DNA from: Flammeovirgaceae bacterium SG7u.111
GTDB lineage: Bacteria; Bacteroidota; Bacteroidia; Cytophagales; Flammeovirgaceae
NCBI GenBank assembly: GCA_034044135.1
Contig: CP139021.1
Coordinates: forward strand, 4,603,635-4,667,634
Length of the DNA stretch: 64,000 bases
Direction of reading: 5' to 3'
Part shown: positions 29,051-36,970 of the stretch, piece by piece
Numbering within the stretch: the stretch's first letter is position 1
How the letters are laid out: every line of letters starts with the position of its first letter
Notes under the pieces: generated by a model
What the model was told of the DNA's origin: nothing
The model's database searches: none
The model's input: the letters and a program-made list of their open reading frames with translations, nothing else
Translations under genes and position numbers: made by a program

Positions 29051-29404
29051 ATGCCGCCACCAAAAGACCTACTTAGAGGAACATTAAAGACCATCGTACT
29101 GAAACTGCTTTCGGAGCAAAAGCAGATGTATGGTTACGAAATAACCCAAAAGGTGAAAGAGCTTTCCAACGGGGAAATTGAGCTGACCTTCGGAGCGCTC
29201 TACCCTATTTTGCACAAGCTGGAAGCCGAGGGCGAGCTAATTACAGAAACCGTGTTGGTTGATAACCGAGCACGGAAATATTACCAGCTCACCTCAAAAG
29301 GCAACGAAACGGTAAAAACCAAACTCCTAGAATTTCAGCAGTTTATAGAAACTATGGGCTTGTTGCTCAACCCTTCACCTACTAAACCCTTTTCCCTGTC
29401 ATGA
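29051..29404 (+). CDS. PadR-family transcriptional regulator
   Basis: 117 residues. The winged helix is obvious: LRGTLKTIVLKLLSEQKQMYGYEITQKVKELSNGEIELTFGALYPILHKLEAEGEL, then the wing DNRARKYYQLTSKG. PadR proteins are ligand-responsive repressors. Its stop overlaps the start of the membrane-protein gene by four bases (ATGA), the typical PadR plus membrane-partner pair in Bacteroidota. Confidence 0.93.
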   Translation: MPPPKDLLRGTLKTIVLKLLSEQKQMYGYEITQKVKELSNGEIELTFGALYPILHKLEAEGELITETVLVDNRARKYYQLTSKGNETVKTKLLEFQQFIETMGLLLNPSPTKPFSLS

Positions 29405-30006
29405 GCCAACTAAGCAAAGAAGATATCGACTTTTTGCACAAAAGCTTGGTGCAGAAAGAAATTAAGTACGACCCACTAGTCGATGAGATACTCGACCATA
29501 TCTGCTGCGAGGTAGAAAGCCTGATGGAAAACGGGATGAGCTTTTCAGATGCTTATTTACGGTTTTCCAAATCACTCAAGCCAAAAGCTCTCAAACAACT
29601 TGAAGAAGAAACCATTCATTTAGTCAATTATAAATTATTTGTCATGAAAAAAGCGATTTATATCCTAGCGTCATTTACTGCATCCCTGTTTTTTATTTCC
29701 TCTATAGTGAAGATTATGCATTGGCCAGGTGCCAATCCACTTATCCAAATTGATATGATACTTTTTACTATTACTTTCCTTATTTGGGGAGCATATACCG
29801 TAAAGAAAGAGAAACTAAACAGAAGTGGAAAAGCCCTCTTTCCACTTTCGACACTATTTGTTTTTTCCGCATTGGGTGGCGCTTTTTTCAAGGTAATGCA
29901 TTGGCCGGGGGCAGGTATCCTGCTCACAGTAGGGCTAGCAGGAACAGCACTTTTCTCGGTACCCTATTTCTTCATCACTTCTTACAAAGAAACTCAGAAA
30001 GGTTAG
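29401..30006 (+). CDS. Membrane protein with duplicated GldL-like MHWPGA hairpins
   Basis: 201 residues. A soluble N-terminal region (residues 1-75, DPLVDEILDHICCEVESLMENGMSF) resembles the cytoplasmic part of DUF1700/PadR-partner proteins. Four hydrophobic helices follow in two pairs; the second half of each pair starts KIMHWPGAN (about residue 104) and KVMHWPGAG (about residue 165). KIMHWPGA is also the hallmark of GldL, the inner-membrane motor protein of gliding and type IX secretion, but GldL has it once. Function unknown; translation is coupled to padR. Confidence 0.75.
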   Translation: MSQLSKEDIDFLHKSLVQKEIKYDPLVDEILDHICCEVESLMENGMSFSDAYLRFSKSLKPKALKQLEEETIHLVNYKLFVMKKAIYILASFTASLFFISSIVKIMHWPGANPLIQIDMILFTITFLIWGAYTVKKEKLNRSGKALFPLSTLFVFSALGGAFFKVMHWPGAGILLTVGLAGTALFSVPYFFITSYKETQKG

Positions 30007-30179: not shown

Positions 30180-30803
30180 ATGGAAGAGCATTTATTGAAA
30201 TATTATGGAAACCTTTTCGAAAAGGAGTTACTGGAAGAGATTTCCAACGAAGGCACTTACAAAAGGATTGAAAAGGGAACAACACTGATAGAAATCGGCA
30301 ATTATATCAAAAGCATGCCCCTGCTGCTCAACGGAGCCATAAAAGTGCTGCGGGAAGATGAAAATGGTAGTGAGTTGCTGCTCTATTTCCTAGAGAAAGG
30401 AGATACCTGCGCCATGACGCTCACCTGCTGCGTAGGCAATGCCCGCAGTCAAATCCGAGCCGTAGCCGAGCTAGATACCGAGCTTTTCCTCCTCCCCAGC
30501 CAAAAAATGGAAGAGTGGCTGAAATATAAATCGTGGAGAGATTTTGTGTTTGAAAGCTACAATGCAAGACTCTACGAAATGCTCGACGCCATAGACACGT
30601 TGGCTTTCCTGAACATGAACGAGCGCCTTTACAAATACCTACAAAACAAGGTGATGGTCAAAAAAAGCAAGGAACTAACTATTTCCCACCAAGAGATCGC
30701 CTACGAGCTCAACACCTCCCGAGTGGTCATTTCCCGCCTGCTCAAACAGTTTGAAAATGAGGGTAAGGTCAAGCTGTTCAGGAATAAACTTGAGGTGGTT
30801 TAG
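30180..30803 (+). CDS. Crp/Fnr-family regulator with Cys-rich sensor
   Basis: 207 residues: a cyclic-nucleotide-binding-type beta-roll (20-130) and a C-terminal HTH (LTISHQEIAYELNTSRVVISRLLKQFENEGKVKL). The sensor carries Cys77, Cys83 and Cys84 in GDTCAMTLTCCVG, absent from Crp and not spaced like the Fnr iron-sulfur cluster ligands. Cysteines there suit redox or persulfide sensing. The genes downstream handle reduced sulfur, and two of their promoters share a near-identical dyad-like site at the class II position, so this regulator is the likely activator. The target inference rests on location. Confidence 0.88.
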   Translation: MEEHLLKYYGNLFEKELLEEISNEGTYKRIEKGTTLIEIGNYIKSMPLLLNGAIKVLREDENGSELLLYFLEKGDTCAMTLTCCVGNARSQIRAVAELDTELFLLPSQKMEEWLKYKSWRDFVFESYNARLYEMLDAIDTLAFLNMNERLYKYLQNKVMVKKSKELTISHQEIAYELNTSRVVISRLLKQFENEGKVKLFRNKLEVV

Positions 30804-30826
30804 GATTGTTTTTCTGGGTTAAACAC

Positions 30827-30848
30827 GAGCCGTTGCATGCAACGGCTC
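30827..30848. repeat. 22-bp perfect palindrome
   Basis: GAGCCGTTGCA and its exact complement abut with no spacer, 24 bases after the crp/fnr stop. It resembles the palindromic unit at 37238-37264 in its flanks (GGGTTA upstream, CTCTAC at the end), suggesting one family of intergenic repeat. Confidence 0.55.
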
Positions 30849-30907
30849 TACAACCTATTTCACTATTTCCCATCCCACCACCACTCCAGCACATCGAACC
30901 ATTTCCC

Positions 30908-30928
30908 TTATGTAACAAAAGTAACTGA
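30908..30928 (+). promoter_or_regulatory. Candidate Crp/Fnr site upstream of the uspA-pmpAB operon
   Basis: 21 bp with core ATGTAACAAAAGTAACTGA. The same sequence, 19 of 21 identical, lies at 34726-34746. Both end exactly 19 bases before a -7 box, so the site centre is near -41, where class II Crp/Fnr activators bind. Confidence 0.65.
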
Positions 30929-30947
30929 ACGGGCAAGTAGCACAATA

Positions 30948-30955
30948 TAGTTTTG
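30948..30955 (+). promoter_or_regulatory. -7 box of the uspA-pmpAB operon
   Basis: TAGTTTTG matches TAnnTTTG. There is no TTG at the -33 position, as expected for an activator-dependent promoter. Transcription should start near 30959, which excludes the in-frame ATG at 30957. Confidence 0.6.
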
Positions 30956-31004
30956 CATGGATTACGAATTATCACTAAACCGCAAAACGAAATTTAGCGA
31001 ACAA

Positions 31005-31847
31005 ATGAAAGTGCTGTTTCTTACCAAGTTTTCCGAAGTAGAAAACTTTTTACTCAATTTTACCCAGAAGATACACAAAGCGCTACCACTTGAGGTGGAT
31101 GTACTACATGTGGTAAACTCTTACCCACAAGTGCCGCTTAAACTTGACGGAACTATTATAGACAAGTGCGTAGACTATGACCTTTCGGGATTGGAAAAAC
31201 TCCAAAAAGAGGAGCAAATACTCGCCGAAGAAATAAAATCTGTCCATCCATTTATCAGTTCGGCTTCCGTAAAAATCGGAGATTTGAGGAGGATAGTAAA
31301 ATACCTGCTTATCCAAAAAGACTATGATTTTATTTTTATGGGTTCGCACAAAACTAGCCTGATAGAAGACTGGACAAACGAAACCACTATCGACCGAATT
31401 TTGGAACAGGTGGATATCCCTGTGCTCAGCCTTAAGTGCGACCAATCGCACAATGCGGGGGTCGAACGCATCGGCATCTTCCACGACTTCTCTTCTTCCA
31501 AGCAACCTAAAAAAATAGAATCGCTTAGCAAATTGGCTAAAGCTCTCAGTTCAGAAGCCCATTTGTTCAAGTTCGTAAAAGAACCACTATCGGAAGAAAA
31601 ACAGGCTGAATGGGAAAAAAGGATGAGAGCCTTTGCCACAGAAAACGAGCTGAACAACTATCAACTACATATCCTCCCGATGAAAGGTGCTAACGAAGAG
31701 GAACTTATGACCCAGCAAATAGCAGAAGAGGGTTTACAACTCATCGCCATTCCAGAGCTACACAGAAAGTCGGTGAACTGGATGTTTGGCAAAAACCTAA
31801 AGTCTAGCATAGCCGACCATGTGCTAGCCCCTTTACTCATTTACTAA
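31005..31847 (+). CDS. Universal stress protein, tandem UspA domains
   Basis: About 280 residues from ATG 31005 (MKVLFLTKFSEVEN), chosen because the earlier ATG at 30957 falls at the predicted transcription start. The first Usp half ends with the nucleotide-loop-like DYDFIFMGSHKTS...ILEQVDIPVLSL; the second half (residues 150-280) ends with SSIADHVLAPLLIY. The ATP-binding G-loop (G-2x-G-9x-GS/T) is degenerate in both, so it may not bind ATP. It is first in an operon with the PmpA/PmpB genes, 22 bases away. Confidence 0.82.
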   Translation: MKVLFLTKFSEVENFLLNFTQKIHKALPLEVDVLHVVNSYPQVPLKLDGTIIDKCVDYDLSGLEKLQKEEQILAEEIKSVHPFISSASVKIGDLRRIVKYLLIQKDYDFIFMGSHKTSLIEDWTNETTIDRILEQVDIPVLSLKCDQSHNAGVERIGIFHDFSSSKQPKKIESLSKLAKALSSEAHLFKFVKEPLSEEKQAEWEKRMRAFATENELNNYQLHILPMKGANEEELMTQQIAEEGLQLIAIPELHRKSVNWMFGKNLKSSIADHVLAPLLIY

Positions 31848-31869
31848 ATTCAACTGAACAAACTATAAA

Positions 31870-32436
31870 ATGCAAATAATAGAATTCATTTCACAACCAT
31901 GGCCATGGTATGTATCGGGTTTTGCCATTGCGCTTACCATGTTTTTATTAGTTTACGAAGGAAAAAACTTTGGCATGTCATCCAACTTGCGCACCATGTG
32001 TACCATTGGCGGAGCTGGTAAATTTGCCGATTTCTTCCGCTTCGACTGGAAATCCCAGCGCTGGAACTTGCTCGTAGTAATTGGCTCTGTAATCGGTGGG
32101 TTCATCGCTTCGCAATTCCTTACCCCCGAGCAGAGCCTCGAACTAAATACACAAACAGTGGAAGCACTTCAGGAATTAGGTTTTTCTGAGCCAAAAAACA
32201 GCTATGTGCCCCAAGAAATTTTTGCTATGGAAAACCTCATGAGCTTCAAGGGTATTTCCATCCTAGTCATTGCCGGTTTTTTGGTAGGGTTTGGTGCTCG
32301 CTATGCAGGAGGCTGTACATCGGGACATGCCATCAGTGGACTGAGCAACTTGCAGCTCCCCTCACTCGTTGCCGTTGTCGGCTTTTTCATAGGCGGTCTC
32401 ATCATGACCCATTTCCTTCTTCCAGTTATTTTCTAA
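31870..32436 (+). CDS. pmpA: YeeE/YedE-type sulfur transporter, N-terminal half (PmpA-like)
   Basis: 188 residues with four or five helices. The conserved cysteine motif is in GFGARYAGGCTSGHAISGLS. In TsuA/YeeE proteins this motif guides thiosulfate through the membrane. The fold is split over two genes here, as in PmpAB, the permease found beside persulfide dioxygenases in BigR-type operons. Likely substrate is thiosulfate or another reduced sulfur species. Confidence 0.88.
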   Translation: MQIIEFISQPWPWYVSGFAIALTMFLLVYEGKNFGMSSNLRTMCTIGGAGKFADFFRFDWKSQRWNLLVVIGSVIGGFIASQFLTPEQSLELNTQTVEALQELGFSEPKNSYVPQEIFAMENLMSFKGISILVIAGFLVGFGARYAGGCTSGHAISGLSNLQLPSLVAVVGFFIGGLIMTHFLLPVIF

Positions 32437-32457
32437 ATACAAAATCGATTTAAACAC

Positions 32458-32871
32458 ATGAAATATATAAGGTTTTTAGCAATAGGCATGTTGTTTGGTA
32501 TTGTCATGTTCAAATCACAAGCTGTTTCTTGGTACAGGATTTTCGAAATGTTCAGATTCGAATCTTTCCATATGTACGGCATTATTGGAACTGCGGTAGG
32601 CTTAGGGCTACTCATCGTGCAGGGTATCAAACGCTTCCAACTTAAAAGCAGAAAAGGTGAACAGATCCTTTTCGCACCCAAAAACAAAAGTATTCCCCGC
32701 TACTTAATAGGTGGAATTATTTTTGGGCTCGGTTGGGCACTTGCTGGCGCTTGCCCTGGCCCTATGTACGTCTTGGTAGGCAACGGTACATTTTCAATTC
32801 TAGTCGTGTTGGCCGCAGCACTGCTCGGCACCTTCACTTATGGCGTGTTCAGAGGAAAACTTCCACACTAG
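32458..32871 (+). CDS. pmpB: YeeE/YedE-type sulfur transporter, C-terminal half (PmpB-like, DUF6691)
   Basis: 137 residues with four helices and the second cysteine motif GLGWALAGACPGPMYVLVGNG. It starts 21 bases after the pmpA stop and should assemble with it into one transport unit. Confidence 0.88.
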   Translation: MKYIRFLAIGMLFGIVMFKSQAVSWYRIFEMFRFESFHMYGIIGTAVGLGLLIVQGIKRFQLKSRKGEQILFAPKNKSIPRYLIGGIIFGLGWALAGACPGPMYVLVGNGTFSILVVLAAALLGTFTYGVFRGKLPH

Positions 32872-32991
32872 CCTTTATCTGTACCACAAAAAATAAAATA
32901 CTAACAGTGTAATCTCCTCCTAATCTGTTAACTTGTAAGAAAGGTTTGGAGAAGGTTTATCACAAAACCAACAACCAAAACAATAATCACA

Positions 32992-34716
32992 ATGAAACGA
33001 TACTTACCTTTTCTCGATTGGATAAAAGGCTACGGAAAACATCAGTTAGCTGGGGATATCCCAGCGGGCCTCACCGTCGGGATTATGCTCATTCCACAGG
33101 GAATGGCCTATGCCATGATCGCTGGGCTTCCTCCTGTATATGGGCTATACGCATCGCTAATTCCCCAAATCATCTATGCTTTTTTAGGAACTTCCCGCCA
33201 GTTGGCAGTAGGGCCTGTGGCCATGGATTCTTTACTAGTGGCAGCCGGGCTAACCGTAATAGCACAAGCAGGAACGGAATACTATATTTTACTTGCTATT
33301 ACCCTCGCTTTTCTGATGGGTACTATGCAGTTTTTAATGGGTGTTTTCCGCTTAGGTTTTTTAGTCAATTTCCTTTCAAAACCTGTAATTAGCGGTTTTA
33401 CCTCCGCTGCAGCGCTCATTATCGGGCTCAATCAGTTGAAATATTTGATAGGCGTAGATATTTCAAGAAGCAACCAAATCCATTTGCTCATAGCCGATGC
33501 ATTTACAAAACTTGGCAACATCCATTGGCTCACTTTTGTTATCGGCATTGCCGGCATTGCCATCATCAAACTCGCAAAAAAATATGTCCCGAAACTGCCC
33601 GCGGCCTTGCTTGTGGTAGTATTGGGTATTTTGGCAGTAACCTTTCTCGACCTTACCGAACAGGGAATTAAAATAGTGGGCGATATCCCACAGGGTTTTC
33701 CTATTTTCAGCATGCCTATTTTACCTGCCGAGCACCTCAACGATTTGTTGCCGATTGCGCTTACGCTTTCCCTAATTGCCTTTATGGAAGCCATTTCGGT
33801 AGCCAAGGCCATTGAACAAAAACACGACGACTACAAGGTAGACGCTAACCAAGAACTGATCGCCATAGGAGCATCAAATATCGTAGGATCATTTTTCCAA
33901 TCGTACCCAACTACGGGAGGATTTTCTAGAACAGCGGTGAACGATCAAGCCGGTGCAAGAACAAGTGTAGCAGCCATTATCAGTGCGATAGTGGTCGGTC
34001 TAACGCTCTTGTTCCTCACTCCGTTGTTTTACAATTTGCCCAAAGCCGTTTTGGCTTCTATCATCATGGTAGCCGTATTTGGGCTAATAGATTTCAAGTA
34101 CCCAATTAGGCTTTGGAAAAATAGAAAAGAAGAGTTTTTCTTACTGATTTTCACCTTTGTGATCACCCTTACGGTGGGAATAAAAGAGGGAATAATCTCG
34201 GGCGTATTGCTCTCGTTGTTGATGCTGGTATACCGGACTACCAAGCCACATTTGGCTATTTTGGGACATATTCCAAACACTACTCTGTACAAAAATATCA
34301 AGCGTTTCCCACAAGCATACGAACGGGAAGATGTGCTCATTTTGAGATTTGATGCCCAGCTTTATTTTGCCAATGCCCAGTTTTTCAAAGAAAGCGTGGA
34401 AGAGCAAGTGAAGCTCCGTGGCGATGAACTAAAACTACTTGTAATCAGTGCCGAGGCCATTAATTACCTCGATTCTTCGGCAACGCATATGCTGGTGCAG
34501 CTCATAGCTGATATCAAGAAACAAGGGATTGAGATTTACCTTACCTCTGCCATAGGCCCGGTGCGGGACATCCTGAAAAAAGGCGGGCTAACAGACCTGA
34601 TTTCAGCACAAAACATGTTCAACACCATCGATGAAGCCCTTTCCAATTATGCTCATCTGGAAAAAAAGGAGAACGACGAACTCTTAAAATCGATTGCTAC
34701 CCAGAGTAATATATGA
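32992..34716 (+). CDS. SulP-family anion transporter with STAS domain
   Basis: 574 residues. The SulP core (residues 10-410) has the signatures [35 protein letters not shown] and, later, [25 protein letters not shown]-terminal STAS domain (about 435-550; [22 protein letters not shown]) follows. SulP proteins carry sulfate, bicarbonate or other anions. Its neighbours suggest sulfate, either export of the oxidation product or uptake; this is inference. The 120-base gap before it has no obvious copy of the shared Crp/Fnr site. Confidence 0.93.
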
Positions 34717-34725
34717 TCAATTCGC

Positions 34726-34746
34726 TTATGTAACAAATGTAGCTGA
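34726..34746 (+). promoter_or_regulatory. Candidate Crp/Fnr site upstream of the MBL-rhodanese gene
   Basis: Core ATGTAACAAATGTAGCTGA, 19 of 21 identical to the site at 30908. It also ends 19 bases before a -7 box, while the 19-base spacers themselves are not alike; this argues for a conserved protein-binding site. Confidence 0.65.
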
Positions 34747-34765
34747 CAGGATGACAAGCAACCTT

Positions 34766-34773
34766 TACCTTTG
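34766..34773 (+). promoter_or_regulatory. -7 box of the MBL-rhodanese gene
   Basis: TACCTTTG fits TAnnTTTG, with no -33 TTG at the usual distance. Predicted start of transcription near 34777, giving a 50-base leader. Confidence 0.6.
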
Positions 34774-34826
34774 TTGCATAATTTAAAATAGAACAACAAA
34801 ACCAACAAGTACAAAATATTTATAAG

Positions 34827-36236
34827 ATGAAAGTAGAACAGTTATATACCGGTTGTTTAGCGCAAGGCGCTTATTACATTGAAAGCAATGGTGAGGCAGC
34901 AGTTATCGACCCTTTACGAGAAGTGCAAGGATATGTGGATATGGCGGAGAAAAGAAATGCGAAAGTCAAATACATTTTTGAGACCCACTTTCACGCTGAC
35001 TTTGTAAGCGGTCATGTAACTTTATCAGAAAAAACTGGCGCCCCTATCATTTACGGACCAACGGCTAAGCCCGATTTCGAAAGCATTGTCGCTGAAGATA
35101 ACCAAGAATTCAAACTTGGAGATGTAACTATAAAAGTGCTGCACACGCCTGGGCATACCATGGAAAGCACCACGTATTTGCTGTTGGATGAAGAAGGAAA
35201 AGAGCATGCTATTTTCAGCGGCGACACCTTATTTTTAGGTGATGTGGGAAGACCTGACCTTGCCCAAAAAGCAGCCAGCATGACCCAAGAAGAGCTAGCG
35301 GCTACGCTTTTCGATAGCTTGAGAAACAAAATAATGACCTTGCCTGACGAAACAATAGTTTACCCAGGACACGGTGCAGGTTCGGCTTGTGGCAAAAACA
35401 TGAGCAAGGAAACAGTTGGAACAATTGGCGAGCAAAAAGAGACCAACTACGCTCTTCGTGCGGATATGACCAAAGAGGAGTTTGTGAAAGAAGTAACCGA
35501 TGGATTGTTGCCTCCTCCTGCTTATTTCCCGCTCAACGTCATGCTCAACAAACAAGGCTACAAAGACGTGGCAGATGTGATAGAAAAAGGCCAAACAGGC
35601 ATGAGCCCCGATGCTTTTGAAGCTGCGGCAAACGAAACTGGTGCTGTGGTGCTAGATGTCCGCCATCAGAGCGATTTTGCCAAAGGGCATGTTCCAAGGT
35701 CTATTTTTATAGGAATTGATGGAGGGTTTGCCCCTTGGGTAGGCGCGCTTATCCAAGACGTGAAGCAACCAATTTTGCTGATCGCCCCAGAAGGGAGGGT
35801 AGAAGAAACCATTATCCGACTTTCGAGGGTAGGTTTTGACAACATCATCGGCTACCTCAAAGGAGGCTTTGAAGCTTGGGAAAAAGCAGGTAAAGAATCC
35901 GATTCGGTAGAAACCATTTCAGCAGAAGATTTTGCCAAACTTCGTAACGAAGAAAATATTCATGTGTATGATGTAAGGAAAGAAAGCGAATACCTTTCGG
36001 AACATGTGATAGATGCGGCCAATACGCCACTCGATTTCCTCAACGACCACTTGGCTGAATTCAAATCGGAAGGCACAAATTATGTTCACTGTGCAGGAGG
36101 TTATCGTTCTATGATCGCCAACTCCATCCTCAAATCGAGAGGAATCCACAACTTGGTAGATGTACTTGGAGGATTCGGGGCAATCAAAAAAACAGAAGCC
36201 CCTGTTTCAGCTTATGTATGCCCATCTACGCTCTAG
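34827..36236 (+). CDS. MBL-fold persulfide-dioxygenase-like protein fused to two rhodanese domains
   Basis: 469 residues. Residues 1-250 are a metallo-beta-lactamase fold of the ETHE1/Blh type, with THFHADFVSGH (His54, His56, Asp58), HTPGHTMES and FSGDTLF as metal-site pieces. Two rhodanese-like domains follow. In the first (about 260-360) the active-site loop reads APEGRVEE and has no Cys, so it is catalytically dead. The second (about 365-465) has Cys422 in VHCAGGYRS. The enzyme would oxidise glutathione- or other thiol-persulfides to sulfite, with the rhodanese transferring sulfane sulfur. It likely belongs to the regulon of the upstream Crp/Fnr protein. Confidence 0.9.
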   Translation: MKVEQLYTGCLAQGAYYIESNGEAAVIDPLREVQGYVDMAEKRNAKVKYIFETHFHADFVSGHVTLSEKTGAPIIYGPTAKPDFESIVAEDNQEFKLGDVTIKVLHTPGHTMESTTYLLLDEEGKEHAIFSGDTLFLGDVGRPDLAQKAASMTQEELAATLFDSLRNKIMTLPDETIVYPGHGAGSACGKNMSKETVGTIGEQKETNYALRADMTKEEFVKEVTDGLLPPPAYFPLNVMLNKQGYKDVADVIEKGQTGMSPDAFEAAANETGAVVLDVRHQSDFAKGHVPRSIFIGIDGGFAPWVGALIQDVKQPILLIAPEGRVEETIIRLSRVGFDNIIGYLKGGFEAWEKAGKESDSVETISAEDFAKLRNEENIHVYDVRKESEYLSEHVIDAANTPLDFLNDHLAEFKSEGTNYVHCAGGYRSMIANSILKSRGIHNLVDVLGGFGAIKKTEAPVSAYVCPSTL

Positions 36237-36448: not shown

Positions 36449-36970
36449 ATGGACATTAAAAACTTTCTAAAAGGAAAATACCAAGCTATAACTATTGTTT
36501 TGGACTTAGGCTATGATTCAGCCTGTCAAAAGCTTGCTCATCGCAATAATAGTAATCATGTTTATAAAATAGGTGATGATAAATTCTATTTCCAAAATGG
36601 GTTTCAGATAAAGCTGACTTACAATTCGTTAGATGTCAAGGGATTAAAAATCATCCCAACACCTTCTTATCTACTGACTCCAATTTTTGAAGGTAGTATA
36701 AATAATGAAAATGGCGCCTTGAAGTTAAACGGTCATAATAGAATAACAAAAAAAGCGTATTTTTTCAATGTTATTACATTTTTACCAGCATTAATATTCT
36801 CTATTCAAAACCTTCTTTCTTCTAGTTACTATTTAGGTACTGAAGAATTGATTTTTAGCGGGGTAATGTTAATAGTATTTACATCTTATGTCATAAAAAC
36901 CATAATTACCTCTCATTATTTAAAGAAAATAATAAAAAATGAATTAAAAATAATAATTGATACTCTTTGA
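36449..36970 (+). CDS. Hypothetical protein with two C-terminal membrane helices
   Basis: 173 residues that I do not recognise. The N-terminal 105 residues are soluble and mixed alpha/beta (VYKIGDDKFYFQNGFQIKLTYN). Two hydrophobic helices follow (about 108-130 and 138-158), and the C-terminus is Lys/Ile-rich. Composition is AT-richer than the genes on either side, and the gene lies between a strong terminator and a GC-rich hairpin tract, which fits a lone accessory gene, possibly acquired. Confidence 0.55.
   Translation: MDIKNFLKGKYQAITIVLDLGYDSACQKLAHRNNSNHVYKIGDDKFYFQNGFQIKLTYNSLDVKGLKIIPTPSYLLTPIFEGSINNENGALKLNGHNRITKKAYFFNVITFLPALIFSIQNLLSSSYYLGTEELIFSGVMLIVFTSYVIKTIITSHYLKKIIKNELKIIIDTL

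Follow-up and report, generated by a model that had tools for sequence, protein, structure and literature searches.

A Crp/Fnr-family regulator and its putative class II operators before sulfane-sulfur genes in a Flammeovirgaceae bacterium and other Bacteroidota

To our knowledge most of what has been learned about the sensing of sulfide and persulfide comes from Proteobacteria, Firmicutes and Actinobacteria. CstR, SqrR and FisR are described in PMC9774590 as forming di- or tetrasulfide links between cysteines. Within the Crp/Fnr family, HcpR2, which has an hcp regulon, is given the consensus GTAACnnnnGTTAC in PMC1274295, with specificity set by CRP positions 180 and 181 and with Pro at position 181, three species having Ser or Gln there. 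Here we discuss a locus of Flammeovirgaceae bacterium SG7u.111 (order Cytophagales, phylum Bacteroidota) within a stretch of 64,000 nucleotides of contig CP139021.1, positions 4,603,635 to 4,667,634, that we refer to as the window and whose numbering is used throughout. The locus, at 30180-36236 on the forward strand, comprises a gene for a Crp/Fnr-family regulator of 207 amino acids (30180-30803) followed by genes for a universal stress protein (Usp), a split sulfur permease, an anion transporter and a CstB-like persulfide dioxygenase. We consider it probable that the regulator is an activator that binds class II dyads at two promoters of the locus, with sulfane sulfur acting through Cys77 as the switch. 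Control of the window operons by the adjacent Crp/Fnr protein is the well supported part of this reading, and sulfane sulfur as the signal is what we infer in addition.

The two promoters are marked by TTATGTAACAAAAGTAACTGA at 30908-30928 and TTATGTAACAAATGTAGCTGA at 34726-34746, which are identical at 19 of 21 positions. Each stops exactly 19 bases 5' of a -7 box of the form TAnnTTTG, TAGTTTTG at 30948-30955 and TACCTTTG at 34766-34773 respectively, the bases between are unrelated at the two promoters, and no TTG is found near -33 at either; on all these points the sequence-only reading of this DNA was accurate. Allowing up to 3 mismatches, the window contains the 19-base core twice, each time as an exact match (expected 0.18; 3 of 100 shuffles reached 2). 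We no longer take the literal 21-mer as the full operator, because its right half differs between loci (GTAAC, GTAGC, GTTAC or GTCAC), and use a dyad in its place. The 21-mers are weak forms of TGTAAC-N4-GTTACA, with the putative dyads at 30911-30926 (TGTAAC-N4-GTAACT, centre 30918.5) and 34729-34744 (centre 34736.5). At both promoters the centre lies 29.5 bp 5' of the box T, which is -41.5 if the box T is taken as -12 and would put the transcription starts near 30960 and 34778. Class II sites of CRP are likewise centred at -41.5, 29.5 bp from the box T. The proposal that the element is centred near -41 with class II geometry is thus borne out, as dyad and box are in fixed phase here and the spacing is conserved in other loci.

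For the comparison across loci two sets were chosen by the regulator. The order set has 60 loci fetched of 114 listed matches, strongest first and then spread, with the window's own as an extra, and the named set has the best 80 of 499 listed relatives, from Flavobacterium, Sphingobacterium, Winogradskyella, Saprospira, Spirosoma, Carboxylicivirga and others, and so leans towards the window. One named locus (L210) is on the same contig as L058 of the order set and holds no dyad-box pair. With distances measured from a point three bases beyond the core, the order loci and the window contain 35 pairs of TGTRACNNNNGTNRC and a TAnnTTTG that follows it, 28 of them at 19 bases and 5 at 20, with 1 in the reversed control; for the named loci 24 of 30 pairs were at 19 bases and both controls gave 0. 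Genome-wide site searches were not chosen by the regulator. Across 194 order genomes the strict pattern for the window type of site gave 23 matches in 18 genomes (reversed control 0) and a palindromic pattern 50 matches in 37 genomes (reversed control 1), while 296 genomes sampled from the phylum gave 72 matches in 45 genomes (control 2). The site-plus-box recurs across Bacteroidota, with near-zero controls in the order. In L056 (10841-10896) the interval that separates a methyltransferase gene from a TauE-type gene holds two divergent class II dyads back to back.

Genomes that have the site also have the regulator, for which the homologue threshold was E <= 1e-20. The regulator subfamily occurs in 94 of the 194 order genomes and in all 44 of those that have a site (p=1.5e-17), among genomes of at least 2.5 Mb there are 70 without the regulator and none of these has a site match (p=7e-14), and in the phylum sample 43 of 45 site genomes have it against 116 of 296 (p=5e-18; outside the order 40 of 42), although it counts against our reading that these p-values overstate independence because the genomes are related.

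Further support comes from the recognition helix, which alignments place at residues 180-186 (SRVVISR, 30717-30737), with V182 at CRP position 181. In the family the helix is mostly SR(V/E)VISR, and all 141 aligned rows, of which one is a duplicate, have both R181 and R186 (window numbering). Where residue 182 is V, site base 4 is A in 36 of 42 cases and base 13 is T or A in 38 of 42; where it is E, base 4 is G in 22 of 35 and base 13 is C in 27 of 35. This covariation has Fisher values of 4e-7 for base 4 and 2e-10 for base 13, in tests that were made on related genomes and from which four sites were excluded, three that had T at base 4 and one that had G at base 13. The genome that contains the window holds both types, with TGTAAC sites next to the window's V-type regulator; an E-type paralogue of 47% identity (L039) lies directly before TGTGATTTTTATCACTGA-19-TAGTTTTG and a rhodanese-type gene, and a further site, TGTGAC-N4-GTCACC, precedes a YgaP-like membrane protein gene (L101).

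A broad pattern finds exactly 4 sites in the whole 7.7-Mb genome (control 0), two of them outside the window, and all 4 precede a Usp, rhodanese-type or YgaP-like gene. The locus had been thought a self-contained regulon, and it does hold a regulator and two operators, but with a paralogous regulator that has its own site and a fourth site elsewhere in the genome it is not the whole of the system. Scattered extra sites of the V type were not found across the genome beyond control level: exact matches to the core in the 7.72 Mb are the two window sites only, the next best having 2 mismatches, and the 22 matches at up to 3 mismatches are not above the control of 27. The strict site-plus-box pattern likewise has the two window sites as its only exact matches, with 25 at up to 3 mismatches against 38 in the control.

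The genes that follow the sites are mostly concerned with sulfur. We read 61 distinct sites from two order-wide searches (together 66). As first gene we took the longest open reading frame (ORF) that starts no more than 350 bases from the box, a distance of at most 110 bases in 53 of the 61 cases, and Pfam names are those of cluster representatives. Sulfur or thiol genes follow 48 of the 61, made up of 27 for rhodanese or MBL-rhodanese proteins, 9 for TauE/SafE, 5 for CoA-disulfide-reductase-like proteins (391 bits, below the family cut-off of 579), 2 for YeeE halves, 2 for YgaP-like transmembrane proteins, 2 for peroxiredoxins and 1 for OsmC. In genus g3, which belongs to the same family, the site (L244-L248) precedes a CoA-disulfide-reductase-like flavoprotein gene, a candidate persulfide reductase. 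Of 59 tabulated loci, 37 have a rhodanese-containing protein and 23 have TauE no more than five genes away from the regulator, L050 and L075 being left out of this table. Of the 72 sites of the phylum sample 28 were read, and by eye 15 of these have an MBL-rhodanese gene next. Genes for TolC-like outer-membrane efflux proteins likewise have this class II dyad in front of them in L237, L238 and L077 and, by eye, in L271, L273, L275 and L282; of all these only L237 was profile-scanned.

In the window the gene identities first proposed hold. The Usp is UspA-type (PF00582). Its longest ORF opens at 30957, only one base past the box, and an internal ATG is the equivalent of the position at which the L040 and L041 orthologues start; for both reasons we prefer that ATG, at 31005, as probably the true start, giving a gene at 31005-31847 and a transcript leader of about 45 bases. 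Two short proteins follow, a PmpA-like half (31870-32436) and a PmpB-like half (32458-32871, also DUF6691) of a YeeE/YedE sulfur permease, which match the C-terminal and N-terminal ends of PF04143 (Sulf_transp) respectively, so that their profile ranges agree with the definition of PmpAB in PMC11582611 as two short proteins matching the YeeE halves; the halves were assigned after that paper. A SulP-family anion transporter with a STAS domain was identified by profile searches at 32992-34716. The last gene (34827-36236) encodes an MBL-rhodanese-rhodanese protein by Pfam, matched nearly full length by 3tp9 and 3r2u, with cysteines in HCAGGYRS of the last domain and in GSACGK. CstB has an MBL domain, a pseudo-rhodanese and a rhodanese with the catalytic cysteine, and with this layout present the protein is predicted to be a persulfide dioxygenase/sulfurtransferase. 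Directly upstream of the locus, at 29051-30006, are a PadR-type regulator gene and then one for a membrane protein with two GldL_N-like stretches, and downstream of the MBL-rhodanese gene is an ORF of 173 amino acids without a Pfam match (36449-36970).

The regulator is a Crp/Fnr protein with cNMP_binding (PF00027) and HTH_Crp_2 (PF13545) domains and PF00325, all above cut-off, and its AlphaFold2 model (mean pLDDT 86) matches the folds of CRP and of 3dv8, its nearest solved relative. It is neither a cAMP-responsive CRP (48 bits against a curated equivalog cut-off of 266) nor NtcA (38 bits against 245). The cAMP contacts of CRP include Gly71 and Glu72. In the alignment Ile70-Gly71-Glu72 of CRP faces Cys-Ala and a gap, so that Gly71 is replaced by Ala and Glu72 is without a counterpart.

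As had been noted from the sequence, Cys77, Cys83 and Cys84 are present, and they are the only cysteines of the regulator. FNR, the oxygen sensor, holds its Fe-S cluster by four cysteines, three of them near the N terminus, and with this set of cysteines we rejected an identification as FNR. The idea of a three-cysteine sensor did not survive the family alignment. Cys77 (codon 30408-30410), which aligns with Ile70 of CRP in the region of the cyclic-nucleotide pocket, is alone invariant, in 61 of 61 order and 81 of 81 named proteins (the window included in both), while Cys83 is found in 41 of 61 and 69 of 81 and Cys84 in 36 of 61 and 73 of 81. By whole-ORF counts 14 of the 61 order regulators and 3 of the 81 named ones have a single cysteine, and the loci of four of those 14 (L083, L091, L094 and L096) contain intact sites. 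Sensors of the FisR, CstR and SqrR kind have at least two conserved reactive cysteines; with Cys77 alone invariant and 14 of 61 without another cysteine, a FisR-like multi-cysteine switch seems unlikely in this family. In the model a short helix, 78-85, directly follows Cys77, with lower local confidence (block means 72 and 67), and a lone thiol at the helix start would suit either persulfidation or a place in the wall of a ligand pocket. A cysteine is, by eye, absent at this place from two further Crp-like proteins encoded in the same genome (L253 and L256), and for a third weak match (L257) there was no Crp-like ORF among the two ORFs viewed.

We suggest that the regulator binds TGTAAC-N4-GT(T/A)(A/G)C centred at -41.5 and there substitutes for the -33 contact, starting transcription at both promoters. 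Promoter 1 would drive uspA, the PmpAB-type permease and SulP, and promoter 2 the CstB-like dioxygenase, these operon extents being predictions. Most likely the level of sulfane sulfur in the cell, as persulfide or polysulfide, would switch DNA binding by modifying Cys77, which lies in what was once the cyclic-nucleotide pocket, and excess sulfane sulfur would be removed or converted. The E-type paralogue would act likewise at CRP-like TGTGA(C/T) sites before the rhodanese gene and that for the YgaP-like membrane protein. A Crp/Fnr activator with class II sites over sulfane-sulfur genes, as originally proposed, has the support of spacing, co-occurrence, covariation and targets, with activation itself a prediction from them.

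Several observations weigh against this reading. Two genomes of one genus, G414 and G422, have sites with no regulator homologue, and no exact site was found in 50 of the 94 order genomes that carry the regulator, perhaps due to the strictness of the patterns. HcpR2 uses the same palindrome as the window-type dyad, so that our claim rests on the regulator and the targets. Eight of the 61 targets have no evident sulfur link (3 outer-membrane efflux proteins, 2 DUF983, a methyltransferase, a fatty-acid hydroxylase and SnoaL), and another 5 are neutral, 3 of them being Usp genes and 2 genes for the regulator. A cysteine at the place of Cys77 is also present in 3dv8, and Cys77 may be structural. 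Crp/Fnr homologues of Flavobacteriales and Saprospiraceae are predicted in PMC8510549 to be MalR-like, sensing carbon availability. In the two loci concerned (L258 and L259) the gene after the site is, by eye, Hcp-like for G422 and apparently DUF2492-like for G414, as expected for HcpR2.

The same regulator and sites could instead serve a small ligand of the pocket, either a nucleotide or a metabolite of sulfur such as thiosulfate, sulfite or a CoA species, with Cys77 merely lining it. The cNMP_binding fold is retained, and a lone cysteine cannot make the intra-subunit di- or tetrasulfide bridges that CstR, SqrR and FisR are described as having (PMC9774590), but with Cys77 strictly conserved and the two cAMP contacts altered as above we regard this alternative as unlikely. 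It is less likely still that the protein senses oxygen, NO or redox state in the manner of FNR or HcpR, with the sulfur genes as part of a respiratory response. This would fit the palindrome of the HcpR2 consensus (PMC1274295) and the presence of Usp, peroxiredoxin and OsmC genes among the targets, but hcp is in 0 of the 194 order genomes, the three cysteines clustered at 77-84 do not allow an FNR-type four-cysteine cluster, and the targets are mostly rhodanese, MBL-rhodanese, TauE and CoA-disulfide-reductase-like. That the sites belong to another regulator with the adjacent gene a bystander is very improbable: HcpR2-type proteins can use the same dyad, but the co-occurrence and the helix-base covariation argue otherwise, as does the genome of the window, where each of two regulators goes with its own type of site.

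Returning to a regulator that responds to sulfane sulfur, we regard as sound the prediction of a regulator-operator system for sulfane-sulfur genes across the phylum, larger than first claimed. It is possible, and we say this more tentatively, that a Bacteroidota subfamily of Crp/Fnr is a sulfane-sulfur sensor in its own right, with one cysteine at the mouth of the pocket being persulfidated to turn on class II promoters, and with the V/E change in the helix splitting the regulons of paralogues between TGTAAC and TGTGAC in one cell. Among the matches listed from the openly licensed literature, by title and start of abstract, there was no Crp/Fnr sulfane-sulfur regulator in Bacteroidota, and a Crp-type protein in a sulfur-detoxification switch seems undescribed. 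A regulator-operator pair that can be read from Bacteroidota genomes would name a sulfur-stress regulon and place many unannotated genes in it, a single-cysteine Crp-type design would join a field of multi-cysteine sensors, and V182E is a one-residue prediction on specificity.

With regard to known systems, 3dv8 is the best match to the window regulator in both sequence and fold and shares the cysteine at the Cys77 position, but it is from another phylum (Eubacterium rectale) and has 24% identity in the structural alignment. NtcA and CRP at class II promoters have the same fold, with an R-V recognition helix as in NtcA and the centre-to-box distance as in CRP, but the window regulator has a pocket with Cys77 and without a counterpart of CRP Glu72, and its box is the TAnnTTTG of Bacteroidota and not TATAAT. 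HcpR2 is of the same family and has the same palindrome, with specificity at CRP positions 180 and 181, but HcpR2 has Pro at 181 and controls hcp, whereas the window family has V or E there in every one of the 141 aligned rows and has sulfur genes as targets; with no hcp gene found in the 194 order genomes we do not identify it as HcpR2.

The sequence-only reading had the regulator filling the role of BigR, CstR or FisR. A CsoR/CstR-family protein was not found in the genome (BigR and FisR were not searched for), and BigR/SqrR homologues occur in Bacteroides too, according to PMC9774250. According to PMC9774590, FisR, CstR and SqrR-BigR are, like the window regulator, cysteine-bearing and concerned with the removal of sulfane sulfur, BigR and CstR controlling dioxygenase/sulfurtransferase genes, but they belong to the CsoR, ArsR and Fis-type families and sense through two or three conserved cysteines. 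FisR is an activator of another family and the other two, CstR and BigR, act as repressors (PMC9774590), in contrast to the window family with its one invariant cysteine and its class II site.

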